Of a DNA stretch of 44,144 nt, positions 4,352-28,000 are shown piece by piece. The position numbers and the translations under genes were made by a program. Source of the DNA: a virus; IMG/VR virus record IMGVR_UViG_3300047381_000663, positions 1 to 44,144 of that record; one strand, 5' to 3'. The notes under the pieces were generated by a model that saw only the letters and a program-made list of their open reading frames with translations, was not told where the DNA came from and did no database searches. How positions within the stretch are numbered: the first letter of the stretch is position 1; the number at the start of each line of letters is the position of its first letter.

Positions 4352-7300
4352 TTAACTTACATTGTTTGCACTTAGGAATCCATAATATGTACTCCCCCCA
4401 TCATAAGTATAGAATACTAATATATCTTTTCCATTTGCTGTTAGTGTTGGTGCTGCTCCATTAGCCCATTGTATTATACCAGGCCAACTTACAGTTGCAG
4501 TACCACCACTTCCATCTTCCAACACCAATGTAAATCCAATTGCACGAGGGCCTGTTGGTGCGTTTGAAAGAGAAATTGTTATACTACCAGTTCTATTGAT
4601 TCTAAAGTTGTTACCTTCAGTTAAATCTATATTTGTTGTTCCACTTGAATTACCTATATCGTAGTAGTTTTCGTGGAATCTTGTAGAGAATGTAGCATCA
4701 CTTACATCTAAATCACCAGTTACATCTAATAAATTACCATTGAATGTTAAATTAGCTTCTGCATTTGCAGTTCCATCACCTTCCATAGTAACAACTCTAT
4801 CTTCTGCATCATTATCTACATTTAATAATCCACTTGAACCAGATGTACCAGATGAGCCCGAAGAACCAGTTTCACCTGATGAACCAGAAGTTCCACTTGT
4901 ACCACTCGTACCACTACTTCCAAATAAAGTACCATCTAAACCAGATGTACCAGCAGTACCAGACGAACCTGATGAACCACCCTCTCCAGTTATACCCGAT
5001 GTACCCGAAGAACCAGAAGTTCCACCTGTTCCACTACTACCACTACTTCCGAATAAAGTACCATCTAAACCACTTGTACCAGATGTACCAGCCGTTCCAG
5101 ATGAACCAGCCGTTGATGCAGTACCAGACGAACCCGATGAACCCGCAGTACCTCTCGTACCACTACTACCACTACTTCCAAATAAAGTACCATCTTGTCC
5201 AGAAGTACCTGATGTTCCAGCTGAACCACTTTCTCCACTCGTACCAGAAGAACCACTTATTCCACTTGTACCGCTTGAACCACTACTTCCGAATAAAGTA
5301 CCATCTTGTCCAGAAGTACCTGATGAACCAGCAGTTCCACTTACACCAGATGTTCCACTTTCTCCACTCGTACCACGCGTACCAGAAGAACCAGATGAAC
5401 CAAAGAAAGTTCCATCAATACCACTTGTACCAGTTGTTCCAGAAGTACCTGATGAACCTCCAGTACCAGCAGTACCAGCGGTACCTGTTGAACCTGAAGT
5501 TCCCGAAGTACCATGTGTACCACTACTTCCAAAGAATGTTCCATCTTGTCCAGAAGAACCTGAAGTACCAGTTGTACCCGATGTACCAGCAGTTGATGAA
5601 GTACCAGATGAGCCAGATGAACCACCAGTACCAGTTGTTCCAGATGAACCAGCTGAACCAAAGAATGTTCCATCTTGTCCGCTTGTTCCACTCGTTCCAC
5701 TTACCCCACTACTACCTGATGTTCCAGCACCAGAAGTACCAGAAGTACCAGCCGTACCTGATGAACCGAAGAATGTTCCATCAACACCTGATGTACCAGT
5801 TGTACCACTTGTCCCACTACTACCACTCTCACCGCTTGTACCAGATGTACCTGCTCCACTCGTACCAGAAGTACCAGCCGTACCAAAATTAGTTCCATCT
5901 AAACCAGAAGAACCTGAAGTTCCAGTTGTACCAGAAGAACCTGATGTTCCAGTTGTACCACTCGTTCCAGAAGTTCCAGCAGTACCAAAGTTAGTTCCAT
6001 CTTGTCCAGATGAACCCGAAGTACCATTTGTACCATTAGCTCCATTTTCTCCATCAATACCCGATGTACCAGTTGTACCTGAAGAGCCAGCAGTACCAGA
6101 TGAGCCACTACTACCGCTGGTTCCAGATGTTCCAGAAGTACCACTACTTCCAAAGAACGTTCCATCTAATCCAGTTGTTCCAGATGTACCATCACTTCCT
6201 AATCCAGAAGTACCCGATGAACCTGCGGTTCCACTTGAACCAGATGAACCGAAGAATGTTCCATCTACACCAGAAGAACCTGAAGTTCCACTTGTACCAG
6301 ACGAACCTGCCGAACCACTTGTCCCACTACTTCCGCTAGTACCATTTGTACCTGATGTACCTGATGTTCCACTACTCCCTTCAGCTGATGTACCAGAACT
6401 ACCACTTGTTCCAGTTGTTCCGCTTGTTCCAGTTGTTCCAGAAGTTCCACTTGTTCCACTACTTCCCTCTGCGGATGTACCAGAAGAACCTGATGTTCCA
6501 CTTGTTCCGCTTGTACCACTACTTCCACTTGTTCCAGATGTACCTGATGTACCACTACTTCCTTCAGCAGATGTACCACTTGTTCCTGCTGAACCTGAAG
6601 TTCCAGTTGTTCCGCTTGTTCCAGAAGTACCAGCCGTTCCACTACTTCCCTCAGCTGATGTACCTGATGTACCAGTTGTACCAGAAGTACCAGCTGAACC
6701 ACTTGTTCCATTAGAACCAGATGTACCCGATGTACCTGCTGAACCACTTGTCCCACTACTACCACTCGTTCCAGATGTACCAGAAGTTCCACTACTACCA
6801 CTCGTTCCATCAGAACCACTTGTTCCACTACTACCACTCGTTCCAGATGTACCAGAAGTTCCTTCAGAACCAGTTGTTCCAGAAGTTCCAGATGTACCCG
6901 ATGTACCTGCTGAACCTCCACTACCAGACGTTCCACTTGTTCCAGAAGTTCCAGTTGTTCCGCTTGTTCCAGAAGTACCACTTGTACCACTACTTCCACT
7001 TGTTCCAGATGAACCTGATGTTCCGTTTGTACCTGAAGTTCCAGATGTACCAGCCGAACCTGATGAACCTTCTGCTCCACTTGTTCCACTTGTTCCAGAA
7101 GTACCTGATGTACCATTAGTACCTGTCGAACCAGAAGAACCAGAAGTACCCGATGAACCAGAAGTACCAGCTGAACCTGAAGAACCTTCTTGTCCACTCG
7201 TACCACTACTTCCACTACTTCCGCTTGTTCCACTACTTCCAGAAGAACCACTTGAACCAGAACTTCCGCTTGTACCACTTGTACCAGAACTTCCACTTGT

Positions 7301-10300
7301 TCCGCTTGTACCACTACTTCCACTTGAACCAGATGAACCCGATGAACCGGATGTACCTCCACTACCACTACTTCCGCTTGAACCAGATGTACCCGAAGTT
7401 CCACTACTTCCACTTATACCACTTGAACCAGATGAACCTGATGTTCCAGAAGAACCTCCCGTACCAGATGAGCCTGAAGTTCCACTTGAACCAGATGTAC
7501 CTGATGTTCCGTATTTATCAACAATGTTTATTGTTCCAAGCATTGAACCATGAACACTACATTGGTAATATATGTTATTAGGAGCATTTTCAGGAACTCT
7601 ATATTCTATTAAAGTAGAAGTACTATGAACTCCAGCTCCTGCATCATTATTTGTTGTACCAGGCACAGTTGTATTATCACCAGATTCTAATCTTAATGCA
7701 AATGGATGTGATGAACTTACATTTGAAACATCAAAGTAATATAATTCACCCCTTACAAGAGTTAATGATGGTTGGTTTCCACTATATCCATCTATTGTAT
7801 AATTGTTTCCACCTGGTGTTCTAACAATGAACAAAGCTCCACCTTCTCTACCAGCAGTACCAGATGTACCACTCGTTCCAGACGAACCTGATGTTCCAGA
7901 TGTACCAGTTGAACCTGATGTACCAGCAGTACCAGATGTACCACTACTTCCAGAAGAACCACTTGAGCCGGAAGAACCAGATGTTCCAGACGTTCCTGAA
8001 GTTCCACTACTACCACTCGTTCCACTTGTTCCAGAAGTACCCGATGAACCAGAAGTACCACTACTTCCACTTGAACCAGAAGTACCAGATGAACCTGAAG
8101 TTCCACTACTACCACTTGTTCCAGCGGTTCCACTACTACCACTTGTCCCACTACTACCACCTGTTCCACTTGAACCAGAAGTACCAGCAGTACCACTTGT
8201 TCCAGCAGTTCCACTACTACCACTTGTACCAGCAGTTCCAGAAGTTCCACTTGAACCAGATGAACCAGCCGTTCCAGTAGTACCACTACTACCAGAAGAA
8301 CCCGATGTACCACCAGTACCAGATGTACCACTTACAGCAGTTACATCTCTTTTGAAAACTTTTCCAGTTGATTCATCAATAACTAAAACTGTATCTGAAC
8401 TACCAGTTTGTAATCCTACAAATTGTGTACTACCAGATGATACTAAACTACCACTTACTTCAAATCTTCCAACAAATGAACCAGTACCAGTATTTGGTAA
8501 GAAATTTTCTCCTAAGAAATCACCAGCATTTAAAGCGAATGAAGCAGTTGCTGCATAAGATGCTGAAAGTACAGTCATCGATGCCGTTTGGTCATTTCTT
8601 ACATAATCTTCAGCAGATACAGCGTTTATAGCATAAGATGCTGAAAGAGCGTATGATGCTGAAAGTACAGTCATCGATGCCGTTTGGTCAGTTCTTACAA
8701 AGTTATCAGTATTAAAATCACCAGCGTTTACGGCGAATGAAGCAGTTTCAGCATATGATGCTGAAAGTACAGTCATTGAAGCCGTTTGGTCATTTTGTAT
8801 ATAGTTATCTAAATTAGCAATCTCAGCAAGAGATGCCGAATCGAATCCAAATAAGTTTGATGCAGTTTGAGCTAAATCAGCGTTTCTAGCATATGATGCT
8901 GATAATACTGAACCTACTACATCACTACCTTGTACAAATCCTGCTAATCTACCACCAGTACCAATTACTGCTTGTCCACTTGTCAATCCACTAAATGTTA
9001 CTCTAACCGATGAACTATCGATTGATTCTATTGCTTGTGGAATAATCTGTCCATTTGAACCAGTTTCATAAATTTGAACTACTGGATAATCAATAGCGAA
9101 ATTGTGTTGGAATGTTACCTGAGTTACATCTGAGAATGGGAATACAGCAGTATCACCAAATTGTGTTACAGGTCTAAATTTGTTTGCATCTGCATCAAAT
9201 ACTAAAATATCTAAATCATCAGGTACATCTATACCAACATTTTCACCTTGGTATGAACCTACGAATGATGATGTAATTCTTGGTGAGAATATTTCATCCG
9301 TTACAGTTATCTTAGATGCACTTACATCGTTTTGGAAGGTTACATCTCCGAAAAATGTTGAACCACTATCTATTGACCTAACTACGAATCCATCATCAGG
9401 AGTAACCGATGCGGTTACAGAACCACTAAGTATTCTACTTTGGTCTAATCCTTCAATAGCATCAGCAGGAATATTAAATAATCCCTCACCACTACCACTA
9501 AAGAATCCACTTCCAGATGGTATTTCTATATTACCAATAAAAGTAGAACCACTTGTTGGAGAAAATACCCTAAACCCTTCTATATTATCAACCGATGCAC
9601 TAATACCACCACTTATGATAAGATTTAATTCTAAATCTTCTAATGCTTCTGCAGGAATATTAAATAATCCCCCACCATCACCAGTAAATAATGTACCACT
9701 AATTGGTTTATTTACGATTAAACCAGCAGTAGGGTCTACTCTTGCTTCAGCAGCACCAGATACAATTCTATCTAATTCTAAATCTTCAAGTGCATCTAAT
9801 GGAATATTAAATAATCCACCACCATCACCTTTATATAAAGATGCTGTTATTGATTGAGAAACATGTAGAGAACCACTAATTTCTACTTTAACTGAACCTG
9901 AGTTTATATTTGAATCTAAGTTTTCAACTCTAAAGAAACCTAATGGGTCAACTGATGCAGTTACCGAACCAGTAAATATTTTTGATGAATCAATTGCTAA
10001 GTTAGCAATATCAATGTTTGTAATCCCACTACCATCACCAGTAATAATACCACCAACATCTAAAGATTCAGAAATAATAACTGAACCACTAAATGATGAA
10101 TCTACTGCAATTGATGAGGTTTCGTTAAATACTTTAAATTCAGTTTCCGATAAAGATGCAGTTGCTGAACCACTTGATAACTGAGTTACGTTTAGTGATA
10201 AATTAGCAATATCAATATTTGTTAAACCACTACCATCACCAGTAAATACTCCACCACCACCAACAGTTATTGAACCAGATGTTACAATTGAACCAGTGAA

Positions 10301-13300
10301 TACTGCTCCACCAGTTGGTGCAGTTACTACAAATGTATCACCACTAGCAACCGATGCCGTAGCAGAACCACTTGAGATAAGAGGAGCAGCTGCTGCTTGT
10401 ACATTTGTTAATTGAGAACCATCACCAACAAAGAATGATGCACTTACAGATTCAGCAATATCAACCGAACCAGTTACTGATAAATTTTTACTTCCAGTTA
10501 AGAATCCTATTGATACACTACCACTTACATCTAAAGATGATTTAAATTCTGAACCACTTATTGCCGTTACTACAAACGATTCTCCACTCTCAACCGATGC
10601 CGTAGCAGAACCACTAGCAATTACAGGTGATAAATCAGCTTGTACATTTGTTAATTGAGAACCATCCCCTACAAATGAACCAGAGAATGAACCACTAATT
10701 TCATCAGCTTCTATTTTATTAGCTGTTATTTTTTCACTTACATCAAAACTACCAGTTACATCTACATCTCCTTTGAGAATGTTAGTTGTTACTTCTGGAG
10801 TTGTACCTAATACATTAAATACATTACCATATGATTCTGATTGTGCTGCGTAATAATATAATTGTGATGGTGCACTAGCTGATGGGGTAATCGTTAAGAA
10901 AGCTCCATTAGCACCAGGATTTACACTACTACTAACTACATTAATAAAGTATTGAGAACCACTGTCAGAATTTGTACCATCTAAATTTTCTGAAATTTTG
11001 AAATCAAATCCAGCATTAGAACTATCTGATAAATCAAAATAATAAGGGTTATCTTTAATAGTTTTAAATGTTGCTTTACCAACACCATCTATAAAGTACC
11101 TACTTTCTGATATTATTACTGAACGACTTGTTGGTATATTTTCTAATAAAATAGATGATGAAACTACTAAAGAACCAGTTATAGTAGTATCACCTAATAT
11201 ATCAACATCACCTTGAAGAGATGAAGATGTATTTACTACAAATCCCTCATCAGGTGCAATTGATGCGGTAAAAGAACCACTAGCTATAAAACTTCGTTGA
11301 ATTACATCTTCGGAAAGTGCCGATAATGGAATATCAAATAAATCTCTACCACTACCACTAAACGAACCACTAAATTCATCAGCTATAATCTTTGGAGTAG
11401 TAATTGATTCCGTTACATTTAATGTTCCATCTATTCTTAGATTATCTTCAATTCGTGAATCTAAGTATGGGAATTCATTAACAACATTAATAACAGCTGA
11501 CCCAGCCATACCACCATGATTCAAACAATAGTAGTAAAGTTGAGTTGGTGTTTCTGATGTTATTAATATACTAACTTGAGAACCTGCACTTCCAGCATCA
11601 ATACTACCAGTAGTTACACTTGAAGTATATTCAGTTCCAGAAGAATGAATACCATTTAATGTTGTAGAAAATTTTAATGGGTGAGTTTCATTTGATGTAT
11701 CTGATTGGTCAAATGTATATGTACTACCACTTACTAAATATAAATCTGGATGTATTTGTCCATCTATAAAATATTTGTTACCATCATCAGTTGAACCAAC
11801 AGTAACTATTTTTGTTAAATTATCTTTTATTTGATTTGATGATGAAATAAATACACTACCACTAATAGTTACATCATCTTCAAATCTACCAGTTGAGTTT
11901 ACTTCAAATCCTCTAGTCGGATGAACCGATGCAGTTACTGAACCACTTACAATTCTAAATGCTTCATCTGTAATTGCTGAACGAGGTATATTAAATAAAG
12001 ATTCACCACTACCACTAAAAATAGATGCAGATACAGTTCCACTTACATCAATATCACCATCAAAAGATGCTGATGTATTTACAACAAACCCTAAGTTTGG
12101 AGAAATAGATGCCGTTGCTGAACCACTTGATATTCTTGGAGAATCTTCAGAAAGTGCAGATTGTGGAATATCAAATAAATTAGCACCACTACCACTAAAT
12201 GATGAACTAACATCAAGTTGTACATTTCCACTTACAAATAAAGAGCCACTAAATATTGAACCACTTTCAACAGATTTTACTACAAATCCAAAGTTTGGAG
12301 AAACTGATGCGGTTACTGAACCACTTGATATTAATGGTGCATCCTCTGAAAGTGCTGATTGTGGAATATTAAATAATCCACTACCATCCCCAACAAATCC
12401 ACTGGAACTTATAAATTTACTTGATGTTAAATTACCAAATATAGAAGTATCACCAAATAATGTTTGTTTATCACTTCCAGTATTATCACCAAATATATTT
12501 GAACCAGAAGAATAAATTATTGATGATGAAATAAAATCAGTAAATATTTCGTTAGCTGTAATTCTACCAACAACAGTTAAATCATTATCAATTGTTAAAT
12601 CACCTTGTATAGAAGCTGATGTATTTACTACAAATCCTAAGTTAGGTGAAATAGATGCGGTTGCTGAACCACTAGCAATTCTAACAGCATCTTCAGAAAG
12701 TGCTGATTGAGGGATATTATTTAAATCCGAACCATCACCACTAAATGAACCACTAAATGAACCAGTAATTTCATCAGCTATAATTTTTGGAACATCTAAT
12801 GTTTCTGTTATAGAAACACTACCACTAAATTCAGATTTTACTGAACCTGTTCCGAATACTTTAAATGTACCATCGGGTAAAACCGATGCGGTTACTGAAC
12901 CAGTTGTGATTAAATTAGAAATTAGTGCATCTTCAACTAACGCAGATTTTGGTATATCAAATAATTCCGCACCACTACCACTAAATACACTACCACTACT
13001 TAATTGAACACTACCACTAAATATAGAACCACTATCTATTGAGGTTACTCTAAATACATTATCATCAGTTGAAGCAGTTACACTACCAGTTCCAATAAAA
13101 ACTGCTTCTCTCGATACTAACGCTTCAATTGATTCTTGTGCATCATTAGAAAGTGCTGAGAATGGTATATCAAATAAATCTTCACCACTACCACTATATT
13201 TTGAACCACTATTTAATTGAACTGCACCACTAACAAATACCGAACCACTTAATTCAGTTGTTACTGAAGCCGTTGATTGTACTCTAAAGAAACCATCAGT

Positions 13301-15109
13301 TGAAACCGATGCGGTTACTGAACCAGTAGATATTAAGTTCGAAATAAGTGCATCATCCGTTAATGCAGTTCTTGGTATATTGAATAATTGTTCACCACTA
13401 CCACTAAAGAATGAACCACTACTTAAAAATACAGAACCTGTAAAAGTAGAACCACTTAATTCTGATTCTACAACTAATCCAAAGTTTGGAGAAACTGATG
13501 CGGTTACTGAACCACTTCTAATATTATTTGTAATAAGTGCATCTTCAGTAAGTGCTGATTTTGGTATATCAAATAACTCTGCACCACTACCACTAAATAT
13601 ACTACCACTACTTAATCTTAAACTACCACTAAATGTTGAACCACTAGCTTCGGATTTTACAACAAATCCATCAGCATCAGAAACCGATGCAGTTACACTA
13701 CCAGTTGCTAATAAACCAGCTTCAAAAGCAAGAACTGCTTCAACAGCGTCTTGAGCATCATCTGAAAGTGCTGCTAATGGTACATTAAATAATTTTTCAC
13801 CACTACCAGAAATAAATGAACCACTACTTAAAAATATTGAACCTGTAAATGTAGAACCACTATCTAATGAGTTTACTACAAAACCAGTATCAGGTGATAC
13901 GGAAGCAGTTACTGAACCACTAATAATTAAATTCGTTTCTAATGCATCTTCGGTAAGTGCTGAACGAGGAATATCGAAAAGATTAGCACCACTACCACTA
14001 AATATACTACCACTATTAAGTTGAACTGCTCCACTTACAAATATTGAACCACTAAATTCAGATTTTACTGAACCAGTTGATTCTACCTTAAAAACTCCAG
14101 ATGGGTCTAAAGATGCGGTTACTGAACCTGTTACGATTCTTGATGAATCAAATGCATCATCGGTAAGTGCAGTTCTTGGAATGTTAAAAAGATTTTCACC
14201 ACTACCACTAAATGAAGAACCACTATTTAATTCTATATTTCCACTAACTAAAAGTGAACCACTTAATTCAGTTGTTACTGAACTACTACCAAATACTCTA
14301 AAGAATCCAGAATCATCAACAGATGCACTTACTGAACCAGTTGCTATGATTGGAGTAACTAATGCATCAGGTGCTAGTGCTGATTTTGGAATGTTAAATA
14401 ATCCCTCACCACTACCACTAAAGAATGAACCACTATTTAATTCAATAGTTCCACTTGCGAATGTAGAACCACTTAATTCAGTTATTCCTACTATTATAGT
14501 ATCTGATAAAGATGATGTTCCTTCTACACTAAATCCTCCAGTAACATTTGTATCACCATTTATTTCTAATGAACCAGTAATTCCAACTGAACCTGTAAAT
14601 TCTTGCTTATCAGTAAGTTCATCACCAAAGATATTTGAACCAGATGAAAAAATAACTGAAGAGGAAATAATTTCTACAATTAATTCTCTAGCTACAATAC
14701 GATTATCAACAATTAAATCACCAGTAACTCTTACATCACCATCTACATCTACATCACCATCAAATGATGATGATACATTTACTAAGAATCCAGTATTTGG
14801 TGAAATTGATGCTGATGCAGAACCTGATAATAATCTTACTGCTTCTGGAAGGTTATTTAATTCAGAACCATCTCCACTAAATGAACCACTAAATGAACCA
14901 GTAACTTGCTCTAATTGAAGTGTTGTAACAAATAAACGATTACCATCAGCATCAGAAGCAACAAGAGCAATAGAACCAGAAGAAAGTGAACCACTCTCAG
15001 GTACACCTAAGTTTGGTTCAGCCTCATTCAGCCTTAGATATTCATATCTATTCTCCGATACATCGGAGGGCCTTATTACTTTAACCTTTCCGCTTAATAA
15101 TTGGCTCAT
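4352..15109 (-). CDS. Giant collagen-like modular tail fibre (3585 residues)
   Basis: A 10.8-kb single frame. Residues about 1-1900 carry FSGSGxxLF(N/D)IPxSAL modules (about 16, each ~70 residues) alternating with SGSVTASVSPxxGFVV strands. Two intact cupredoxin-like domains lie at about 1100-1210 and 2425-2535, and a degenerate one at about 1337-1432. SASYAxTAS repeats fill about 2063-2194. Collagen-like Gly-X-Y tracts run 2259-2422 and 2535-3427. The unique C-terminal domain (about 3427-3585) contains SWPGIIQWANGAAPTLTANG and DILVFYTYDGGSTYYGFL, a form common at phage fibre ends. It is probably a trimeric, host-contacting fibre. No Shine-Dalgarno sequence is evident before the ATG. The Gly-X-Y tracts are Thr/Ser/Ala-rich and lack proline. 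Confidence 0.93.
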   Translation of the reverse strand: MSQLLSGKVKVIRPSDVSENRYEYLRLNEAEPNLGVPESGSLSSGSIALVASDADGNRLFVTTLQLEQVTGSFSGSFSGDGSELNNLPEAVRLLSGSASASISPNTGFLVNVSSSFDGDVDVDGDVRVTGDLIVDNRIVARELIVEIISSSVIFSSGSNIFGDELTDKQEFTGSVGITGSLEINGDTNVTGGFSVEGTSSLSDTIIVGITELSGSTFASGTIELNSGSFFSGSGEGLFNIPKSALAPDALVTPIIATGSVSASVDDSGFFRVFGSSSVTTELSGSLLVSGNIELNSGSSFSGSGENLFNIPRTALTDDAFDSSRIVTGSVTASLDPSGVFKVESTGSVKSEFSGSIFVSGAVQLNSGSIFSGSGANLFDIPRSALTEDALETNLIISGSVTASVSPDTGFVVNSLDSGSTFTGSIFLSSGSFISGSGEKLFNVPLAALSDDAQDAVEAVLAFEAGLLATGSVTASVSDADGFVVKSEASGSTFSGSLRLSSGSIFSGSGAELFDIPKSALTEDALITNNIRSGSVTASVSPNFGLVVESELSGSTFTGSVFLSSGSFFSGSGEQLFNIPRTALTDDALISNLISTGSVTASVSTDGFFRVQSTASVTTELSGSVFVSGAVQLNSGSKYSGSGEDLFDIPFSALSNDAQESIEALVSREAVFIGTGSVTASTDDNVFRVTSIDSGSIFSGSVQLSSGSVFSGSGAELFDIPKSALVEDALISNLITTGSVTASVLPDGTFKVFGTGSVKSEFSGSVSITETLDVPKIIADEITGSFSGSFSGDGSDLNNIPQSALSEDAVRIASGSATASISPNLGFVVNTSASIQGDLTIDNDLTVVGRITANEIFTDFISSSIIYSSGSNIFGDNTGSDKQTLFGDTSIFGNLTSSKFISSSGFVGDGSGLFNIPQSALSEDAPLISSGSVTASVSPNFGFVVKSVESGSIFSGSLFVSGNVQLDVSSSFSGSGANLFDIPQSALSEDSPRISSGSATASISPNLGFVVNTSASFDGDIDVSGTVSASIFSGSGESLFNIPRSAITDEAFRIVSGSVTASVHPTRGFEVNSTGRFEDDVTISGSVFISSSNQIKDNLTKIVTVGSTDDGNKYFIDGQIHPDLYLVSGSTYTFDQSDTSNETHPLKFSTTLNGIHSSGTEYTSSVTTGSIDAGSAGSQVSILITSETPTQLYYYCLNHGGMAGSAVINVVNEFPYLDSRIEDNLRIDGTLNVTESITTPKIIADEFSGSFSGSGRDLFDIPLSALSEDVIQRSFIASGSFTASIAPDEGFVVNTSSSLQGDVDILGDTTITGSLVVSSSILLENIPTSRSVIISESRYFIDGVGKATFKTIKDNPYYFDLSDSSNAGFDFKISENLDGTNSDSGSQYFINVVSSSVNPGANGAFLTITPSASAPSQLYYYAAQSESYGNVFNVLGTTPEVTTNILKGDVDVTGSFDVSEKITANKIEADEISGSFSGSFVGDGSQLTNVQADLSPVIASGSATASVESGESFVVTAISGSEFKSSLDVSGSVSIGFLTGSKNLSVTGSVDIAESVSASFFVGDGSQLTNVQAAAAPLISSGSATASVASGDTFVVTAPTGGAVFTGSIVTSGSITVGGGGVFTGDGSGLTNIDIANLSLNVTQLSSGSATASLSETEFKVFNETSSIAVDSSFSGSVIISESLDVGGIITGDGSGITNIDIANLAIDSSKIFTGSVTASVDPLGFFRVENLDSNINSGSVKVEISGSLHVSQSITASLYKGDGGGLFNIPLDALEDLELDRIVSGAAEARVDPTAGLIVNKPISGTLFTGDGGGLFNIPAEALEDLELNLIISGGISASVDNIEGFRVFSPTSGSTFIGNIEIPSGSGFFSGSGEGLFNIPADAIEGLDQSRILSGSVTASVTPDDGFVVRSIDSGSTFFGDVTFQNDVSASKITVTDEIFSPRITSSFVGSYQGENVGIDVPDDLDILVFDADANKFRPVTQFGDTAVFPFSDVTQVTFQHNFAIDYPVVQIYETGSNGQIIPQAIESIDSSSVRVTFSGLTSGQAVIGTGGRLAGFVQGSDVVGSVLSASYARNADLAQTASNLFGFDSASLAEIANLDNYIQNDQTASMTVLSASYAETASFAVNAGDFNTDNFVRTDQTASMTVLSASYALSASYAINAVSAEDYVRNDQTASMTVLSASYAATASFALNAGDFLGENFLPNTGTGSFVGRFEVSGSLVSSGSTQFVGLQTGSSDTVLVIDESTGKVFKRDVTAVSGTSGTGGTSGSSGSSGTTGTAGSSGSSGTSGTAGTSGSSGTAGTSGTAGTSGSSGTGGSSGTSGSSGTAGTSGSSGTSGSSGTSGSSGSSGTSGSSGTSGTSGTSGSSGTSGTSGTSGSSGSSGSSGSSGTSGTAGTSGSTGTSGTSGSSGTSGTSGTAGREGGALFIVRTPGGNNYTIDGYSGNQPSLTLVRGELYYFDVSNVSSSHPFALRLESGDNTTVPGTTNNDAGAGVHSTSTLIEYRVPENAPNNIYYQCSVHGSMLGTINIVDKYGTSGTSGSSGTSGSSGTGGSSGTSGSSGSSGISGSSGTSGTSGSSGSSGSGGTSGSSGSSGSSGSSGTSGTSGSSGTSGTSGSSGSSGSSGSSGTSGSSGSSGTSGQEGSSGSAGTSGSSGTSGSSGSTGTNGTSGTSGTSGTSGAEGSSGSAGTSGTSGTNGTSGSSGTSGSSGTSGTSGTSGTTGTSGTSGTSGSGGSAGTSGTSGTSGTTGSEGTSGTSGTSGSSGTSGSDGTSGSSGTSGTSGTSGSSGTSGSAGTSGTSGSNGTSGSAGTSGTTGTSGTSAEGSSGTAGTSGTSGTTGTSGSAGTSGTSAEGSSGTSGTSGTSGSSGTSGTSGTSGSSGTSAEGSSGTSGTSGTTGTSGTTGTSGSSGTSAEGSSGTSGTSGTNGTSGSSGTSGSAGSSGTSGTSGSSGVDGTFFGSSGSSGTAGSSGTSGLGSDGTSGTTGLDGTFFGSSGTSGTSGTSGSSGSSGTAGSSGTTGTSGIDGENGANGTNGTSGSSGQDGTNFGTAGTSGTSGTTGTSGSSGTTGTSGSSGLDGTNFGTAGTSGTSGAGTSGTSGESGSSGTSGTTGTSGVDGTFFGSSGTAGTSGTSGAGTSGSSGVSGTSGTSGQDGTFFGSAGSSGTTGTGGSSGSSGTSSTAGTSGTTGTSGSSGQDGTFFGSSGTHGTSGTSGSTGTAGTAGTGGSSGTSGTTGTSGIDGTFFGSSGSSGTRGTSGESGTSGVSGTAGSSGTSGQDGTLFGSSGSSGTSGISGSSGTSGESGSAGTSGTSGQDGTLFGSSGSSGTRGTAGSSGSSGTASTAGSSGTAGTSGTSGLDGTLFGSSGSSGTGGTSGSSGTSGITGEGGSSGSSGTAGTSGLDGTLFGSSGTSGTSGTSGSSGETGSSGSSGTSGSSGLLNVDNDAEDRVVTMEGDGTANAEANLTFNGNLLDVTGDLDVSDATFSTRFHENYYDIGNSSGTTNIDLTEGNNFRINRTGSITISLSNAPTGPRAIGFTLVLEDGSGGTATVSWPGIIQWANGAAPTLTANGKDILVFYTYDGGSTYYGFLSANNVS
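4820..7510 (-). repeat. Collagen-like tract B with periodic interruptions
   Basis: About 890 residues of Gly-X-Y. The first part (about 6265-7510) holds four GTSAEGSSG breaks (five-residue Gly spacing). The second (about 4915-6260) holds twelve DGT(F/L/N)FG cassettes, about every 40 residues, each inserting a four-residue Gly spacing. Confidence 0.93.
7510..7835 (-). other. Cupredoxin-like domain 2 with complete type 1 copper ligand set
   Basis: Residues about 2425-2535, inserted between two collagen-like tracts. His2468 (SSHPFALRL) plus Cys2517, His2520 and Met2523 in YYQCSVHGSMLGTI reproduce the H...C-x2-H-x2-M pattern of blue copper proteins; the His-Cys distance is 49 residues. Confidence 0.7.
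7845..8335 (-). repeat. Collagen-like tract A of the 3585-residue fibre
   Basis: About 160 residues of Gly-X-Y triplets drawn almost only from GTS, GSS, GTA and GTG, with no proline. Ends at GREGGALF where cupredoxin-like domain 2 begins. Confidence 0.93.
8525..8960 (-). repeat. SASYA repeats
   Basis: Four copies of a VLSASYA segment, three of them preceded by DQTASMT, spaced about 30 residues. At DNA level the three DQTASMT copies are near-identical (around 8571, 8661 and 8759). SASYA repeats are frequent in marine phage fibres. Confidence 0.85.
10815..11105 (-). other. Degenerate cupredoxin-like domain
   Basis: Residues about 1337-1432: PYYFDLSDSSNAGFDFKI and QLYYYAAQSESYGNVFNV align with domain 1, but the Cys, both His and the Met are replaced, so copper binding is not expected. 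Confidence 0.6.
11485..11815 (-). other. Cupredoxin-like domain 1 with complete type 1 copper ligand set
   Basis: Residues about 1100-1210 of the 3585-residue fibre. His1143 (THPLKF) is followed 52 residues later by Cys1195, His1198 and Met1201 in YYYCLNHGGMAG. The C-x2-H-x2-M loop is the spacing of amicyanin; His-to-Cys distance is near that of plastocyanin. Confidence 0.65.
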
Positions 15110-16036: not shown

Positions 16037-19000
16037 TTAATCCTGCAGTGCTAATGAGAATGGTGTTACAAGTGAGAATAACGATTTAGAGAATGTTCTA
16101 CCCTCTAATGTACCAGAAGCTTGTTTAATAACAAGACCTCCACCAATTCTAAAGTCACCAAGTTCGTTACCAGAAGTAAAGAATACTCTACCTCCACCAA
16201 TTTCAGTAATTTCCTTATCAGGATCAGGTACACCATCACCACCTTGGTTAGGAGGTAATGCTTTATAAGTTACACCAGCACCAGCGTAAGAGAAATCATG
16301 TCCAGTTGTAATAATTAAAGAACCAAACTCTTCAACAGGCGCTTGTCTAGCAGCGAATTGGAATTGAGTTCTTAAATATCTATTAGTTTCTGCAGTTTCT
16401 TTCTTTTGTTCGTTAATAACAACAGCTGCACTTCCATACACTCCATTGTAATACGATTCAGCCGCTCTGATACTTCTCTCATTACCACCATAGATGATAT
16501 CAGTTGCGATAGCATCTAAAATAAATCCAGTATCTCTATAACATTTTTCTTCATTGTAATCAAAAGTAGGGAATGCCGCATTTGTGTACGATATTGCCTT
16601 ACCTTGTAATACTTTTTTCTCCGCTCTAAGTGCATTAGCTCCATTTTTATTTAATAAGAATGGGAATACTAATTGTTGTTGTTTGATTATCTTTTCAGCC
16701 AACCCTTTTGAGAAATCAATACCATCAGTTGTTTGTGGTTTTTGTTCCGTAGTTGCGATTGAAGGAATATAGTAGTAGAATGTACCTGCTTGTACTGCTC
16801 TAGCATTACCACCATATGTTAAATCAGTTGCTACTGCATCTATGATGTATCCTAAATCTCTACTACAACTAACTTCGTTGTATTCAAACTCACTCCAAGA
16901 CGAACTTAGATAAGCGATTGTTTCTTTTTGTATAAATGTTGTGTTATCTCTTAATAACTGAACACCATTTTTAATTTCAGCTGATGGATTTATGTATTCT
17001 AAGTTTTGAACTACATTTTGTGAAGTTCCATTAGCAAATCTAATTCCATCAATTGTTGGGTCTAACTGATTAGCTTCTGATGGAGTACCACCCTTAGTTG
17101 CTCTTGATGGGTATCTCCAATAGTATAATCCAGCTACTCTACTTCTTTCATTTCCACCGTAAACTAAATCAGTTACAGCTGCATCAATTATATATCCAGT
17201 ATCTCTTCTACATTTATCTTCGTTGTAAGTTACATTACTCCAAGAAGATGATATAAATTCGATAGTTTCATTTTGTACGAAACTTCTATTGTTTCTTAGT
17301 AATTCAGCCGATGCAGATACTTCAGATGTTGGTGAAACGAATATTGTATTTTCTAATACTTTTTCAGCCAATCTAGCAGAGTAGTTAATTCCATCAATTG
17401 TTTGATTTAATTGTCCGTTTGGATTAGTTTGGTAATTAACAGTTGCATCTGATGGGTATAAGTAATAGTACTCACCATTTACTCTACCTCTTTCATTTCC
17501 ACCATATAAGAAATCCGTTGCTACACCATTTAAGATATATCCAGTATCTCTCTTACATTTATCTTCATTGTAATCAAATGTACTCCAAGAAGATGAGATG
17601 TAAGCGATTACTTCATTCTGAATAAATTCTTTATTATCTAAAAGAACTTTATTTCCAGCTAATCTCTCAGCCGATGCCGTTACGAATATTTCGTTTTGTA
17701 CTAATTTACTTGCCACATCACCCGCGTACTTAATACCCGTTGTAGTTGGTTCTAATTGAGTTGATGTTGCTGATGAAGGATATTTGTAGTAGTATTCTCC
17801 TGCAATCTTACTTCTTTGGTTACCACCATAAAGTAAATCAGTAGATACTGCATCTAAAATATGTCCAACATCTCTCATACAAGTTGCTTCTACATAATCA
17901 AACCCTTCCCAAGAAGAACTTAGGTAAGAAATTGATTCAGATTGAATAAACTCTCTATTATTTCTAATTAATTCAACTGATGCTGATATTTGAGCTGATG
18001 GGAAATCAAATGTTACACCTTTAACGATTTGTTCAGTTAATTGTGATGCGTAATTGATACCATCAATAGTTTGTTGAGCTTGAGAACCAGTTCCATTAGC
18101 TTCAGATGGGAATTGATAGTAGAACTTAGCGTTTACTACTGATTGAGATACGATTCCATATCTTAAATCTTCTGCTACACCATTTACAATAAATCCAACA
18201 TCTCTTCTACACTTAACATCATCATAATCAAATCCTATCCACGAAGAAGAAATATATTCTACAACTTCATTTTGTATAAATGGTACACTTTCAGTAATCA
18301 ATCCATATGTAGTTAGAATATCAGAACCAGTTAATAATGAACCATATTCAAATGCAGGTTGAACAACACTTACTGAATTTTGCTCAGTTCTAACAAATGT
18401 GTGAACTGATTGTGGTAAATGTTTAATTGCTCCATTTGATGCTGATACGAATGTGTGAACTGATTGAGGTAGATGTTTTACAGCGTTTGTTGATGCAGAT
18501 ACAAATGTGTGTACCGAACCAGAAGCACTTCCACCATCTCCTACATTTATTGTAAATGTACCAGTTTGTCTTTCTAATCCATCATTTGTAGCCGATACAA
18601 ATGTATGTGTGTTTGTATATGAGGAAGAACCTATGTTTATATCAAACGTATTTGTAGTTACATTAGAAATTTCTAACCATCTTCCATTTGGATAATCTAT
18701 TCCAGCTCTTGGATATGATTTTTCAACAGTATCACCATCCAATACACAAGTATAAGTTAGAGAATTATTATCTAATTTGATATAATCACCATTACTAAAA
18801 TTATGATTAGCTATTGTTATAGTAACATCACCAGTTGATGCGTTATAAGGAGCATCAGTTACAGTATGTGATGTAGTTCCAACTGAAGTAATAACTATTG
18901 ATTGTTCAGCGTATGGGTCAGAACCACTTCTTGGATAAGAATGAACAGATGTATCACCATCTTGGTCACAAGTAAATGCGAATGATTCATTTTCTAATAC

Positions 19001-22000
19001 TACACTTCTACCAACACCTATACCATGCTGTCCAACAGTTACAATCATATCACCACTTAATGCGTTGTAATCAACATCCGATGGTGTAAAGAATTTATTT
19101 GGACCCGAAATACCAACATTTACAGTCATTGTAGTATCAGTAATATCCGTTATCTTCATTGAACGTCCAGCGAATGGGTCAATACCAACTCTTGGATATG
19201 ATTTAACTGATTGATTATTATCCATATCACAAGTGAAAGCAAATGATTCAATATCTAAAATGATACCTTCACCAATACTTAAACTATGACTTTCAACAGT
19301 CATTACGAATTCACCCGTTGCTGGGTCATAAGATGCAGTTGTTGGATTAAATTCTACATTAGGTCCAGACGCTCCTACGTTAACAGTTATAGTATTATTG
19401 GTTTTTGAAAGAATTTCTAATTCATTATTGTAAGCAGGTTGTCCAACTGAAGGTAATTTATCTTCAGTTTTGTTGTTATCCATATCACAAGTAAATGTGA
19501 ACGATTCAGGTGATAAGTATATACCCTCACCCTCAGTATAAGAATGACTTTCAATTGTTAATACAAACTCACCATTTGATGGGTCATAAGTTGCGTTAGT
19601 TGGAGTTGAATCTGCTTTTCCATTAGCTATTGCATCTGATACAATTGCGAATGAAGATGAAATTGTGTTAAAAATAGTAACATCAGTTATACTACTACCA
19701 GTTGCTGGTGAGAATGAAGTTACTTTAATTCCATTATCAGTATTCAAACTTCCTGTTTGAACAAATAATGTTTCTTTGTTAACTAATTTTTCAATTAAAT
19801 CTTTAGTATAGATTAATGCATCAGTAGTTTCATCTAATTGATTACCAGTTGCTTCAGATGGGAATCTATAATAGAATTCACCAGCAGTTAATGCTCTTTG
19901 GTTTCCACCATATCTTAAATCAGTAGCAACAGCATCAATTATGAATCCAGTATCTCTACTACAACTTAATTCATTGTATTCAAAGTTTGGATATTTAGCG
20001 TTTACGAATGCTACAGTTTCAGCTTGTAAGAATTCTCTATTTTCTCTAATTGTATCATAAACAAATTCAACTTCATTTGATGCAGTTTGGAAAACAGCTC
20101 CACTTACTATTTCAGTTACTATATTTTGTACATAATCAATAGCAGTTACAGTTGGGTCTTTTTGTCTATTTTCATTTGGTACACCACCACTAATAGCTGC
20201 TGATGGGAATCTGTAATAATAATCTCCAGCATTCACACTTCTTTCATTTCCACCATATAATAAATCAGTAGAAACTGCATCTATAATATGAGTAATATCT
20301 CTTTTACAAGTTATTTCATTATAAGTAAATCCATCCCACGAAGATGATAAGAATTCAATTGTTTCATTTTGAATAAATTCTCTATTATTTCTAATCAATT
20401 CATAAGAACCACTAACTACTGCGGATGCAGTTTGGAACGTATATCCTCTTACAATACTTTCTGCTAATCTACCAGCATAATTAATACCATCTAAAGTTTG
20501 TTGTAATTGTGCACCTTGTGCCTGAGATGGGAAATCATAGTAGAATTTACCATTGAATATAGATGCAGAATTTGCGTTATACAACATATCTTCAGCTGCC
20601 CCACTTATAATTCCTCCTATATCTCTACTACACTTACTTTCATCATATGATGCAGTTGACCAAGAAGATGATAAATAAGCAATTGATTCACTTTGAATAA
20701 ATCCAATATTTTCTTTTAATAAGTTATATGCTGCAATTGTTGTTGGTGATTCTGATGGAGCTCCATACTCAACAACAGTTGGTAATGAACCAGTTCCATT
20801 TTTAACAATATTAGTTACAATTGCAATTGATGATGAAATTAATCTTTGTTGTAATCTATCTCCAAATGATTCAGATGTAAATTGAACTGCGTCAGTAACT
20901 TTAATTAAGTTATCAACATCAGAGTTATTTTTAACAACGTTTGGTTTAACACCCAATCCATTTTGTAATATATTTTCAATTATACCAACTGATGTATTTA
21001 CTTTATTAATTTCAATTGATGAACCTACAATAGAAGAAGTAAACTGATTTGCTGAAGTTACTTTAATATTGTTTTCAGCATTAGTTACTAATTTTGGTAA
21101 AATACTTATTGAGTTATTTTCAGTTCTAACAAAAGTATGACCTGCCTGAGGTAAATGTTTAACTGCTCCTTTAGATGCAGATACAAATGTATGTAATGAT
21201 TGAGGTTCATGTTTAACAGCGTTTGCTGAAGCTGATACGAATGTATGTAATGAACCTGAAGCGCTTCCACCATCACCTACATTTATTGTAAATGTACCAG
21301 TTTGTCTCTCAATACCATTTGCTGCAGCTGATATAAATTTGTGTTCTCCTATATATGATGATGCACCAATATTAATATTAAATGTATTCGTAGTTACATT
21401 AGAAATTTCTAGCCATCTTCCAGATGGGTAATCATAACCAGGTCTTGGATATGATTTAGTAGTTGTATTATCATCTAATACACAAGTATAAGTTAATGCG
21501 TTATCAGCAACTTTAACATAATCACCATTACTAAATCCGTGATTGGCGATTGTTAGTGTTACTACACCTGTTACTGAGTTGTATGGAGCGTTTGTTGGAG
21601 TATGCGATGTTGTACCTACCGAAGTAATCACAATTGATTGTTCAGCGTATGGGTCAGAACCACTTCTTGGATAAGAGTGAGTTGTAGCATCTCCATCTTG
21701 GTCACAAGTGAACGCAAAAGATTCATTTTCTAATACTACACTTCTTCCTACTCCTAAACCAAATGATTCAGTAACAGTTAGAGTCATATCACCACTTAAA
21801 GCATCATATGATGCAGTAGTTGGTGTAAAGTATTTATTAGGACCTGATATACCTACATTTACCGTCATTGTATTTGAAGTTACCGAAGTAAGTTTCATTG
21901 AACGTCCAGCGAATGGGTCAATTCCAAATCTAGGATAAGATTTAGTTGATTGGTTGTTATCCATATCACAAGTAAATGCAAATGAACCAGTACTTAATAC

Positions 22001-25000
22001 TATACCTTCTCCAACACTTAATGTGTGAGTTCCAGTTGTAATTACGAAATCACCATTAGCAGGGTCATAAGTTGCATTAGTTGGAGTCCATTCAATATCA
22101 GGATCCGATGCTCCTACATTTACAGTTATAGTATCAGTAGTTTTTGCTGTTATCTCTAATTTATTAGTATAAGCAGGTTGTCCAACTGAAGGTAATTTGT
22201 GTTCAGTTCTGTTCCCATCCATCGTACAAGTAAATGTAAACGATTCTGGTCTTATATAAATTTCATCTCCAATATCCAAAGTATGATTTGGAATAGTAAC
22301 TACAAAGTTTCCATTTGATGGGTCATAAGTTGCTGTTGTTGGAGTAAATGAACCTGTACCATTTTCTATGATATTAATAATTTCTCCAAATGATGAACTT
22401 ACAATACCAAATTCAGTATCAGTTACATAAGTACCACTAGCAGTTACATAAGAACCAGTTGTTAGTTGTTGTGGAGTATCTAATGTATCATCAAACCACT
22501 TAGCTAATGCAAATGGTGTATCATCGGTTCCGAATCTAATAATATCATTAATAAACCCTACACTACGAGTTACAAATGCTGATTCAACTTCACTACCACT
22601 TAGTGAAGAAGTAAATTGAGATGTATCATTAATTTTAATTAATCCTTCAATATTTTCAGTTAATATAGGTAAAGTACTTACTGAATCTCGTTGAGTTCTA
22701 ATAAATGTATGAGCTGATTGAGGTAAATGTTTCAATGCCCCATTGGAAGCTGATACAAAAGTATGAACTGATTGAGGTTCATGTTTAACTGCTCTATTGG
22801 ATGCTGATACGAATGTATGTAATGAACCAGAAGCACTTCCACCATCTCCTACATTAATTGTAAACGTTCCATCTTGTCTCTTCAATCCATTAGTAGTTGC
22901 TGATACAAATGTATGTGAACCTACATATGGTGAAGAACCTATATTGATATCAAATGTGTTAGTTGTTACATTTGAAATTTCTAACCATCTTCCACTTGGA
23001 TAATCGTAATTAGGTCTTGGGTAAGATTTTGTAGTTATATTTTTATCTAATACACAAGTATAAGTTAGAGAATTATCATCTAATTTTATGTAATCTCCAT
23101 TATTGAAATTGTGGTTAGCTATTGTAATAGTTACATCACCAGTTGCAGAATCATATGGTGCATCGGTTACACTATGAGAAGTAGTTCCAACTGAAGTAAT
23201 TTTTATTGATTGCTCAGCGTATGGGTCAGAACCACTTCTTGGATAAGAATGAGTAGTTACGTTACTATCCATATCACAAGTGAATGCAAATGATTCGTTT
23301 TCTAACACCACACTTCTACCAACACCCAATCCGAATGATTCAGTAACAGTTAGAGTCATATCTCCACTTAGAGAATTGTAAGAAGCAGATACAGGTGTGA
23401 AATATTTATTCGGACCTGATACTCCTACATTAAATGTCATTGTAGTATCAGTTACAGCCGTAAGAGGAAGTGAACGTACTGAATACGGGTCAATACCAAC
23501 TCTTGGGTAGGATTTAACTGATTGGTCGTTATCCATATCACAAGTAAATGCGAATGATTCAGGTGACATTACTACACCTTCACCAATACTTAAACTATGA
23601 CTTGCTACAGTTACAACAAATTCCCCAGTTGCTGGGTCATAAGATGCAGTTGATGGATTGTATTCTACATTTGGACCCGATTTACCAACGTTTACAGTTA
23701 TAGTATCTGATGTTGTTGATTTAATTGTTAATCTATTATCATAAGCAGGTTGTCCAATTGATGGAAGTTTGTGCTCAGTTCTATTTCCATCCATATCACA
23801 AGTGAATACAAATGATTCAGGTTTTAGATAGATACTATCACCACTATGTAAATTATGTTTAGGTACAGTCATTAAGAAATCACCATTAGCAGGGTCATAA
23901 GTTGCTGTTTTAGGTGTGAATGATTCAATACCTGTTTTTATAATTCCAGTTACAATATCATATGATTCACTAACTTCAGTTTGATATGAACCACTCAATG
24001 CAATTGATGAAGATACTGAATTAAATGATGTTACTTTTATATTTCCATCACTATTAGAAACTTTAGATGGAGTTTTAGTTATTAATTGAGATAAAACACT
24101 TATTGAGTTATTTTGAGTTCTAACAAAAGTATGACCTGCCTGAGGTAGGTGTTTTACTGCTCCATTAGAAGCTGATACAAAAGTATGAACTGATTGTGGT
24201 AAATGTTTTACAGCGTTTATTGATGCTGATACAAATGTATGTATTGAGCCACTTGCACTTCCACCATCTCCAACGTTTATTGTAAATGTTCCAGTTTGTC
24301 TTTCTAAACCATTTGTTGTAGCTGATACAAAAGTATGAGCTGATGTGTAAGATGATGAACCAATGTTAATATCGAAAGTATTAGTTGTTACATTAGAAAT
24401 TTCTAACCATCTTCCAGATGGGTAATCATAACCAGGTCTTGGATATGATTTCTCAACACTATTACCATCTAATATACAAGTATAGGTTAGAGAATTATCA
24501 GAAAGTTTGATATAATCTCCATTACTAAATCCATGTCCTGTGATTGTTATAGTAACATCACCAGTAGATGCATCATAAGGTGCATTAGTTATAGTATGGG
24601 ATGTAGTTCCAACTGAATTTATTACAATTGATTGTTCCGCATATGGGTCTGAACCTAATCTTGGGTAAGAGTGAACAGATGTATCACCATCTTGGTCACA
24701 AGTGAAAGCAAAAGATTCGTTTTCTAATACTACACTTCTTCCTACTCCTAATCCGTGCTGTCCAACAGTTACAACCATATCACCACTCAATGCGTTGTAA
24801 TCAACATCAGTTGGTGTAAATAATTTATTCGGAGCCGATACTCCAACATTAACAGTCATTGTTGTATCAGTAACATCAGTTATAATCATTGAACGACCTG
24901 CAAATGGGTCTATTCCAAATCGAGGGTAAGATTTAACAGATTGGTTATTGTCCATATCACAAGTGAATGCAAATGAACCAGTATCTAATACGATACCCTC

Positions 25001-28000
25001 ACCAATACTTAAACTATGATTACCAGTTGTGATTACAAATTCTCCAGTTGCTGGGTCATAAGATGCAGAAGAAGGTGTGAACTCTACATTAGGACCTGAT
25101 TTACCAACATCCACAGTTATAGTATCTTCGGTTACCGATTTAACTTTTAATTTATTATTATATGCTGGTTGTCCAATTGATGGTAATTTATGTTCCGTTC
25201 TATTATTATCCATTGTACAAGTGAATACAAACGATTCTGGTCTTATACAAATTTCATCCCCAACATCTAAACCATGTTTAGAAATAGTAACTACAAAGTC
25301 TCCATTTGATGGGTCATAAGTTGCTGTTGTTGGAGTAAATGTTTTTTGTGTAATTATATCTCTAACTAAATTCTTAGCATATACAATACCCTCAATAGTT
25401 TCTACTTTTTGTACGGTAGTTGCTTCAGATGGGAATAAGTAATAAAATTCTCCACTCTTAATACTTCGTTGATTACCACCCCATAAGAAATCGGTTGCAA
25501 CACCATCTAAGATGTGTCCAACATCTCTTCTACACTTTTCTCTATTATATGTAAAGAATGGGAATGTGTAATCAATGTATTCAGTTACTTCTTTTTGAAT
25601 TAAAGTTCTATTATCTCTAATCGTATTCCAAATACTTAATTTAGTTTCTGAAGGTTGTACTAATACTACATTCTGAATTAATTTTTGAACTAAGTTAGCT
25701 GCATGTACGATACCATCGATAGTTTGTGTTTTTTGAACACTTGTTGCTTCTGATGGATATAAGTAATAGTACTCACCAGCAATAACACTTCTTTCATTTC
25801 CACCATATCTTAAATCGGTAGATACAGCATCTAAGATGTGTCCAACATCTCTACTACATTTAGCTTCATCATAATCAAATCCAACCCAAGAAGATGAAAT
25901 GTAAGCAATTACTTCAGCTTGAACCAATTCTCTATTTTGTTCTATCGTTTGATATAATCCTTCTCTTTCTACTGATGGATTTACTAATATAGTATTACTC
26001 ATTACCTTATCAGATAATCTTTGAGCATGAACTATACCATCAACAGTTTGGTCTAATTGTGAACCTTGTGCTTGTGATGGATATTTGTAATAGAAATCTC
26101 CAGCAATTATACTTCTCTCATTTCCACCATACAATAAATCAGTAATTGCTGCATCTATTATGTATCCAGTATCTCTCTTACATTTTACATCATCATAATC
26201 AGCTGCGTTCCAAGAAGATGAAACATATTCAATTACTTCATTTTGGATTAAATCTCTATTTTCTAATACTAAGTTATAAGCATTTACTTTATCTGAAGAT
26301 AGTGGTGTAAATACTGCTCCACTTACTACTTTTTGTGCAACTTCACCAGCATATTCAATACCATCTAAAGTTGGGAATAGTTGAGAACCAGTTGCTTCAG
26401 ATGGGAATTTATAATAGAATATACCAGCATTAATTGTTCTTTCGTTACCACCATAAACAATATCAGTAATTGATGCATCTAAGATGTGTACGATATCTCT
26501 TTTACAAGTTTCTTCTGGATAATCAAAATCACTCCAAGAAGCTGATAGGAATGCAATTCCCTCTTCTTTAATAAACTCTTTATTATTGTTTATAATTGTT
26601 TGTGTATCTAATCTATCTTGAACTGGATTTGAGAATGTTACATTCGATGCTATTTTTTGTGCTACCCTACTTGCGTATCGAATTCCATCAATCGTTTGAC
26701 TCAATTGTGAACCTTGTGCTTGTGATGGATACTCTAAGTAGAACTTACCATTAAAGATAGATGCTGAGTAAACATTGTGAATTAAATCTTCAGCTGCTCC
26801 ACTAACAATACCAGCAACATCTCTCATACATTTATCTTCATCATATGATGCAGTTGACCAAGAAGATGATAAGTATGCTATTGTTTCTTCTTTTATGAAA
26901 TCAATATTTGATTTTAATAAGTTGTAAGCTGCAACAGTTGATGAAGCAGTTACCTCACTACCATACAATGATGATGATTCATAAGAACCACTTCCAAATT
27001 CTATAATCTTAGTTACAATATCAAATGCCCCAGAAATAAATTCTATATCTGCAGCTGATGCTGAGATAGAAGATGTAGTAAACTGAGTTTCAGTTGTTAC
27101 TGCGATTGCTTCTTCAGTATTATCAATTTGTGGAGGAATTACAGTTACCGAATCATTTATAGTTCTAACAAATGTGTGAACTGATTGTGGTAGATGTTTA
27201 ACTGCTCCATAAGATGCTGATACGAATGTGTGAACTGATTGTGGTTCATGCTTAACTGCATTTGTTGATGCAGATACAAATGTATGGATTGAACCACTTG
27301 CACTTCCACCATCACCTACATTAATTGTAAATGTACCATCTTGTCTTTTTATTCCATTAGTTGTAGCAGATACAAATGTATGTGCTCCAGTGTAAGAAGA
27401 TGAACCTATATTAATATCAAATGTATTAGTTGTTACATTTGAAATTTGTAACCATCTTCCAGATGGAGAATCATATCCAGCTCTTGGATAAGATTTCTGA
27501 GTTGTGTTTCCATCTAATACACAAGTATAAGTTAATGCACCATCATCAACTTTTATATAATCATTATTAGAGAATCCATGATTAGAGATTGTGAGTGTTA
27601 CGATACCAGTTGTTGGATTGTATGGTGCATTTGTTGGAGTATGTGATGTAGTTCCAACTGAAATAATTTTTATCGATTGTTCTGCATATGGGTCTGAACC
27701 ACTTCTTGGGTAAGAGTGAGTTGTAGAATCACCATCTTGGTCACAAGTAAATGCGAATGATTCATTTTCTAATACTACACTTCTACTTACACCCAATCCA
27801 TGTTGACCTACTGTCAATACCATTTCCCCAGTCAATGCATTATAATTAACATCAGATGGAGTAAAATATTTATTAGGACCTGAGATACCAACATTTACAG
27901 TCATTGTATTATTGGTAACATCAGTTATAATCATTGAACGACCAGCGTAAGGGTCTATACCCAATCTAGGGTAAGATTTAACTGATTGGTCATTATCCAT

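Follow-up and report, generated by a model that had tools for sequence, protein, structure and literature searches.

Cupredoxin-like domains with a candidate type 1 copper site in tail fibre and baseplate proteins of marine phages

A collagen-like tail fibre with two four-ligand domains

We analysed a stretch of viral DNA of 44,144 nucleotides (positions 1 to 44,144 of IMG/VR record IMGVR_UViG_3300047381_000663; hereafter, the window) that encodes a long phage tail fibre in which two domains each carry His, Cys, His and Met in an arrangement reminiscent of type 1 (blue) copper proteins. The fibre open reading frame (ORF; 4352-15109, minus strand) specifies 3585 residues, is collagen-like (Pfam Collagen, E = 5.9e-99) and matches PHROG tail fibre families. 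Both domains lie on the same minus strand, are predicted to be cupredoxin-like and contain all four putative ligands. Domain D1 (fibre residues 1095-1215; 11465-11827) comprises His1143 (11681-11683), in a column aligned with a plastocyanin His, and the loop C1195-x2-H1198-x2-M1201 (11507-11527, with Cys at 11525-11527, His at 11516-11518 and Met at 11507-11509). Domain D2 (residues 2420-2540; 7490-7852), which is flanked by collagen-like runs of the fibre, comprises His2468 (7706-7708) and the loop C2517-x2-H2520-x2-M2523 (7541-7561, with Cys at 7559-7561, His at 7550-7552 and Met at 7541-7543). A first-pass annotation had drawn attention to these two His...Cys-x2-His-x2-Met domains, and both were found, with every ligand at the residue number it had given.

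The motif is hardly a product of fibre composition. In its 3585 residues the protein has 2 Cys, 12 His and 7 Met; its sole two Cys both fall within C-x2-H-x2-M, the spacing characteristic of amicyanin, and a His-Pro pair lies 52 residues (D1) or 49 residues (D2) upstream of each. Composition predicts 1.3e-5 occurrences of C-x2-H-x2-M in the fibre, against two observed, and none of 2000 shuffles of the fibre sequence contained it.

Predicted fold and similarity to copper proteins

AlphaFold2 models of D1 and D2, built from family alignments, reached mean predicted local distance difference test scores (pLDDT) of 87.8 and 89.5 and predicted template modelling scores (pTM) of 0.83 and 0.84, respectively. 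In Foldseek searches of the PDB, the first match of D1 was a pseudoazurin with an engineered amicyanin ligand loop (E = 4.5e-4), and 46 of the 50 rows listed were cupredoxins, copper nitrite or nitrous oxide reductases, or multicopper oxidases, the remaining four being entries of a single Shewanella protein, SO1698. For D2, all 50 rows listed were copper proteins with the cupredoxin fold. VIA-align placed D1 closest to residues 24-137 of the Hyphomicrobium nitrite reductase 2dv6_A (Z 9.7, root-mean-square deviation 2.8, 103 residues aligned) and D2 closest to a two-domain laccase (Z 9.1, root-mean-square deviation 3.0, 107 residues aligned). In both models the first His stands before a strand, the next-to-last strand closes with the Cys, and the second His and the Met lie in the loop before the last strand; blue copper proteins order their ligands along the strands in the same way. 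The domains are thus predicted to be β-sandwiches whose best PDB matches are cupredoxins, the fold on which the first-pass annotation had staked its proposal, and the models together with these matches support placing them in the cupredoxin superfamily.

Sequence profiles point in the same direction. Searched against the PDB, a family profile of 24 sequences (A1) found a copper nitrite reductase first (E = 1.1e-5), then another copper nitrite reductase (0.0014) and a copper oxidase (0.0017), followed by weaker matches in which plastocyanins and amicyanins were mixed with antibody chains and ribosomal protein L31. A wider profile of 54 sequences (A2) gave a best E of 0.0014, with copper proteins accounting for 17 of the 19 matches at E of 1 or less and antibody chains for the other two. 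In the profile alignment of A1 to plastocyanin 1b3i, the four ligand columns coincide with the His, Cys, His and Met of that protein, so that the putative ligand set occupies positions homologous to those of a type 1 copper site. D1 and D2 on their own gave no convincing match to solved structures in PDB sequence searches, and no phage chain with this domain was named among the PDB sequence matches listed (60 of 130 in the A1 search).

When the 54 family members were scanned singly against Pfam and NCBIfam models at E of 0.1 or less, the NCBIfam model matched by most members was TIGR02657, amicyanin (6/54, best 5.5e-6), in keeping with the amicyanin spacing noted in the first-pass annotation; D1 and D2 themselves were not matched by this model. 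Three members matched the NCBIfam plastocyanin model and two that of rusticyanin, whereas Pfam Copper-bind was matched by five (best 5.4e-4) and Cupredoxin_1 by two (best 3.1e-4).

Distribution in marine phages

Homologues are widespread. In a tblastn search of 50,697 phage records at E = 1e-3, 234 records were matched by D1 and 320 by D2; their names start with Synechococcus, Cyanophage, Prochlorococcus, Pelagibacter, Methylophilales, Marine or uncultured, or, for one record from seawater, with 'phage'. Three scans of IMG/VR confirmed 25, 54 and at least 579 relatives, 80 loci being kept from the third. In BFVD, the fold occurs in tail fibre proteins of P-SSM2 and in 'baseplate wedge tail fiber connector' proteins of S-H34 and S-RIM14. 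Separately, five BFVD entries named 'Beta-sandwich proteins' from relatives of Pithovirus and Marseillevirus (A0A481Z6J5, A0A481YVH3, A0A481YWX9, A0A481YY19 and A0A481Z7Q7) matched the D2 model at E between 2.6e-6 and 1.5e-5.

We then took 27 named phages from the tblastn lists, a choice by which the domain was expected in all of them, and searched each whole record. At least one four-ligand copy was present in 26 of the 27, the exception being PSS2, a partial genome. In nine of these phages the tblastn match lies at the C terminus of a gene annotated as gp9 or baseplate wedge tail fibre connector. This C-terminal domain keeps all four ligands in all nine, and a second copy 1-2 kb downstream keeps them in eight, that of S-RIM4 having no Met (L289). 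A variant loop, Cys-x2-His-x3-Met, was seen in P-HM1 (L258) and at one further locus (L135). The N terminus of P-SSM7 gp9 matches T4 gp10 (E = 1.9e-7) and T4 gp9 (E = 1.9e-5), which indicates that the domain is there joined to a T4-type baseplate attachment segment. The remark in the first-pass annotation that related domains exist in marine phage structural proteins is borne out: they are common in virion proteins, including gp9 of the nine phages.

The four ligands are kept or lost as a unit

Across the 27 named phages, 77 places homologous to the domain were read: 42 have four ligands, one has three, five have one and 29 have none, leaving intermediates at 6 of the 77. Where the Cys is present, the first and second His are each kept in 43/43 and the Met in 42/43; where it is absent, the first His occurs in 3/34, the second His in 1/34 and the Met in 1/34. 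A count independent of any alignment shows C-x2-H-x2/3-M to be missing from 35 of the 77 stretches; of the 34 places with one ligand or none, 33 contain no Cys anywhere in the stretch read. The core nevertheless persists in these 34 places: the core Phe is kept in 33, and, among places with a residue at the column concerned, Tyr18 is Tyr or Phe in 17/18 and the position two before the Cys column is aromatic in 17/19. The turn Gly is less well kept (19/34, versus 33/39 in full copies).

A wider set of loci comprised 162 distinct domain sequences and is more biased than the named-phage set, some of its scan patterns having held the motif: 137 carry His-Cys-His-Met, 13 carry none of the four, one carries two (Asp-Cys-His-Leu) and 11 have a gap at a ligand column, the last including truncated pieces and the ligand-less fibre copy X1 described below. 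Intermediates thus make up 1 of the 151 ungapped sequences. A profile in which the ligands and the Pro were masked still recovered 70 of the 77 named-phage places. The share with the full set by the motif rule was 29/30 at 60 bits or more, 4/11 at 40-60 bits, 4/24 at 25-40 bits and 1/5 below 25 bits, indicating that ligand loss goes with the overall divergence of a copy; in the wider locus set, 135 of 160 distinct matches to the masked profile had all four. Within A2, full-ligand copies are 25-72% identical to D2 and still keep the four residues. One IMG/VR group of D2 relatives (L064-L074; 47-52% identity) has Asp, Ser, Asp or Ser, and Gln in their place.

The window itself holds both states. 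X1, in the same fibre (10790-11152, minus strand; A2 match at 10802-11110, E = 6.3e-26), has F, A, gap and gap at the four ligand columns of the family alignment. X2 (29948-30385, minus strand; A2 match at 29981-30271, E = 2.0e-10) lies in an adjoining giant ORF and has A, N, N and A, as read from the corresponding stretch of a related contig (L211). With these profile scores, the two ligand-less relatives proposed in the first-pass annotation are true homologues of D1 and D2. The annotation had also counted independent variation of the four residues against its reading, and across the homologues they do not vary independently. Their joint conservation, as far as the sequences tell, is that of a type 1 copper site, and an all-or-none ligand set on a conserved core is what a jointly used metal site would predict, unlike independent drift.

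Comparison with known systems

The domain resembles amicyanin, plastocyanin and pseudoazurin in its predicted fold, its ligand order and the alignment of its four ligand positions with plastocyanin. Single-domain blue copper proteins are separate small electron carriers, whereas the phage domain forms part of a multi-domain fibre protein. Similarity extends to the cupredoxin domains of copper nitrite reductases and multicopper oxidases, which give the best Z for D1 (2dv6_A, 24-137) and D2 (the two-domain laccase), and the His-Pro at the first phage ligand recalls the multicopper oxidase motif HPxHLHG; unlike these enzymes, the phage domain has no enzyme context. The same phages encode another cupredoxin, plastocyanin (petE): PF00127 scores above its cut-off in 15 of the 27, away from the virion domains and in short ORFs of 107-119 residues, unlike the fibre domain. 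Below its cut-off, PF00127 also picks out the virion domains of P-SSM2, P-HM1 and P-TIM68.

For metal on a phage tail fibre there is a parallel in the iron-binding HxH fibres T4 gp37 and R22Y gp12, with the metal proposed to act in host contact (the 'Ferrojan horse' hypothesis; PMC11705849); metal, fold and ligands all differ from those considered here. Copper is mentioned in that paper once, as a microscope grid, and the copper motifs in PMC8115048 belong to a viral nitrite reductase. Our search of the open-licence literature, which takes in few subscription articles or preprints, turned up no account of phage tails containing a cupredoxin or a copper site. The label 'cupredoxin' may already have been given by automatic domain annotation elsewhere.

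Other features of the window and cellular relatives

The window also encodes a T4-type major head protein and a head maturation protease (PHROG matches). The nearest relatives of the head protein are from an uncultured phage (53.5% identity), Flavobacterium phages immuto (53.1%) and Microcystis phage Mel-JY01 (52.1%). No match to psbA was obtained in three related contig records, all of them fragments. The giant ORF that carries X2 (16037-33832, minus strand) specifies 5931 residues with 45 Cys and 88 His. Its long internal repeats, six copies of which were aligned, share an FTCxMDxN motif and conserved His; from their sequence, these repeats may form another metal or disulfide site.

A scan of cellular genome contigs with the domain of viral contig L076 confirmed 2 of 30 candidate stretches. 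One (L080), on the contig of a Planctomycetota metagenome-assembled genome, is 98% identical to the L076 domain and may for this reason be a misbinned or integrated phage. The other place (L081) corresponds to an Adhaeribacter protein (L323), a cupredoxin that looks secreted, carries C-x2-H-x2-M and has an additional region at its C terminus.

Discussion

Our results suggest that D1 and D2 are probably virion-borne cupredoxin domains with an intact type 1 copper ligand set of the amicyanin type. A type-1-copper-like site in the two domains is well supported by the predicted fold and by the ligand pattern, and the four residues very probably form a metal-binding site. That copper is the physiological metal, as fold and ligand set indicate, is likely; the suggestion in the first-pass annotation that the fibre could bind copper keeps this conditional form.

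Several observations weigh against this interpretation. Neither domain reaches a curated Pfam or NCBIfam cut-off, and PF00127 Copper-bind finds nothing in the window, with D1 and D2 unlisted at E up to 5. Among the 54 members scanned singly, the commonest Pfam match is PF25489, At5g54830-like by name (7/54, best 3e-4), and some non-copper families are matched by one to three members, CBM_4_9 by three (best 0.01) and others once each. Aligned by hhalign with 15 cyanophage plastocyanins, the family profiles match in the C-terminal motif only, with probabilities of 62% (A1) and 27% (A2); an unrelated repeat of the giant protein scored 0.2% against A1 as a control. Foldseek TM-scores are about 0.5, VIA Z values of 9-10 moderately exceed the 7-8 that is the tool's typical best for models with no clear match, and the placement of the ligands was derived solely from sequence and predicted strand order. 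As for the joint retention, the homologues share descent and were found in part with motif-containing patterns, and the Fisher values for ligand association (2e-18 to 5e-21) ignore relatedness, overstate independence and are not to be read as probabilities. Of the 34 ligand-poor places, only 5 have a residue aligned at the Cys column, 3 at that of the second His and 2 at that of the Met; since the alignment often stops before the loop there, it is chiefly the lack of Cys and motif that speaks for loss.

The most serious alternative, which we consider unlikely, is a true metal site whose native metal is zinc or iron, or which stands empty, and which merely ties strands together, like the iron in some phage tail tips. 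The cytoplasm, where fibres fold, offers more zinc and iron than copper. Precedent exists in T4 gp37, whose HxH motifs bind iron, and in Alteromonas phage R22Y, for which the same has been proposed (PMC11705849). By contrast, type 1 copper has as its signature just this combination of His-Cys-His-Met, cupredoxin fold and amicyanin spacing, and ligand-less copies keep the core residues, so that such a tie seems needless for the fold; with so many ligand-less copies retaining their core, a purely structural metal becomes less likely.

That same abundance of ligand-less copies (35 of the 77 named-phage places fall short of four ligands, X1 and X2 in the window have none, and the group L064-L074 has lost all four) would suit a fold relic, that is, a β-sandwich spacer or sugar-binding module descended from a cupredoxin ancestor in which the ligands merely linger. 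Decay of this kind should leave mixtures, however, and intermediates are rare in both sets (6/77 and 1/151 ungapped distinct sequences), while copies as little as 25% and at most 72% identical to D2 retain all four residues; we regard a relic as improbable. Least credible of all is convergence, in which an immunoglobulin-like fibre domain would have hit on the motif by chance: antibody chains do appear among the weaker PDB profile matches and one of the BFVD relatives listed goes by the name 'Immunoglobulin domain-containing protein', but this sits poorly with a chance expectation of 1.3e-5 motifs, with PDB fold lists led by copper proteins and with the alignment of the first His, too, to a plastocyanin ligand.

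Under the preferred reading as a type 1 copper site, the mature particle would hold copper. Free copper is scarce in the cytoplasm, where the fibre is made, so loading would probably be late, from host copper or from seawater at lysis. The metal does not seem needed for folding, judging from the many copies that keep the core and have no ligands, and the ligands that are retained would then suggest, more weakly, a function for the bound metal. The role we favour is contact with the host surface: carried on fibre or baseplate, a rigid module with its metal might dock on a component of the host envelope, be it a copper protein, an electron-transfer protein or, in analogy to the iron 'Ferrojan horse', a receptor for copper uptake. 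A role in host contact or as a trigger, argued from such analogies, is put forward tentatively, as more doubtful than probable. Bolder, and in our estimation rather unlikely, is the view that the particles of marine tailed phages, many T4-like cyanophages among them, carry copper in type 1 centres of the fibres and of the baseplate connector gp9, that these centres serve in host recognition or as a redox trigger for infection, and that virions amount to an unrecognized reservoir of strong copper ligands in seawater.

The cupredoxin fold and its ligand set were already known; what appears new is that they recur on phage virions and that the site is retained or discarded as a whole. Should copper be bound there, no earlier blue-copper-type centre would, within the literature searched, have been assigned to a virus particle; the centre would also be a widespread one, and phage adsorption would be linked to the copper chemistry of the ocean.

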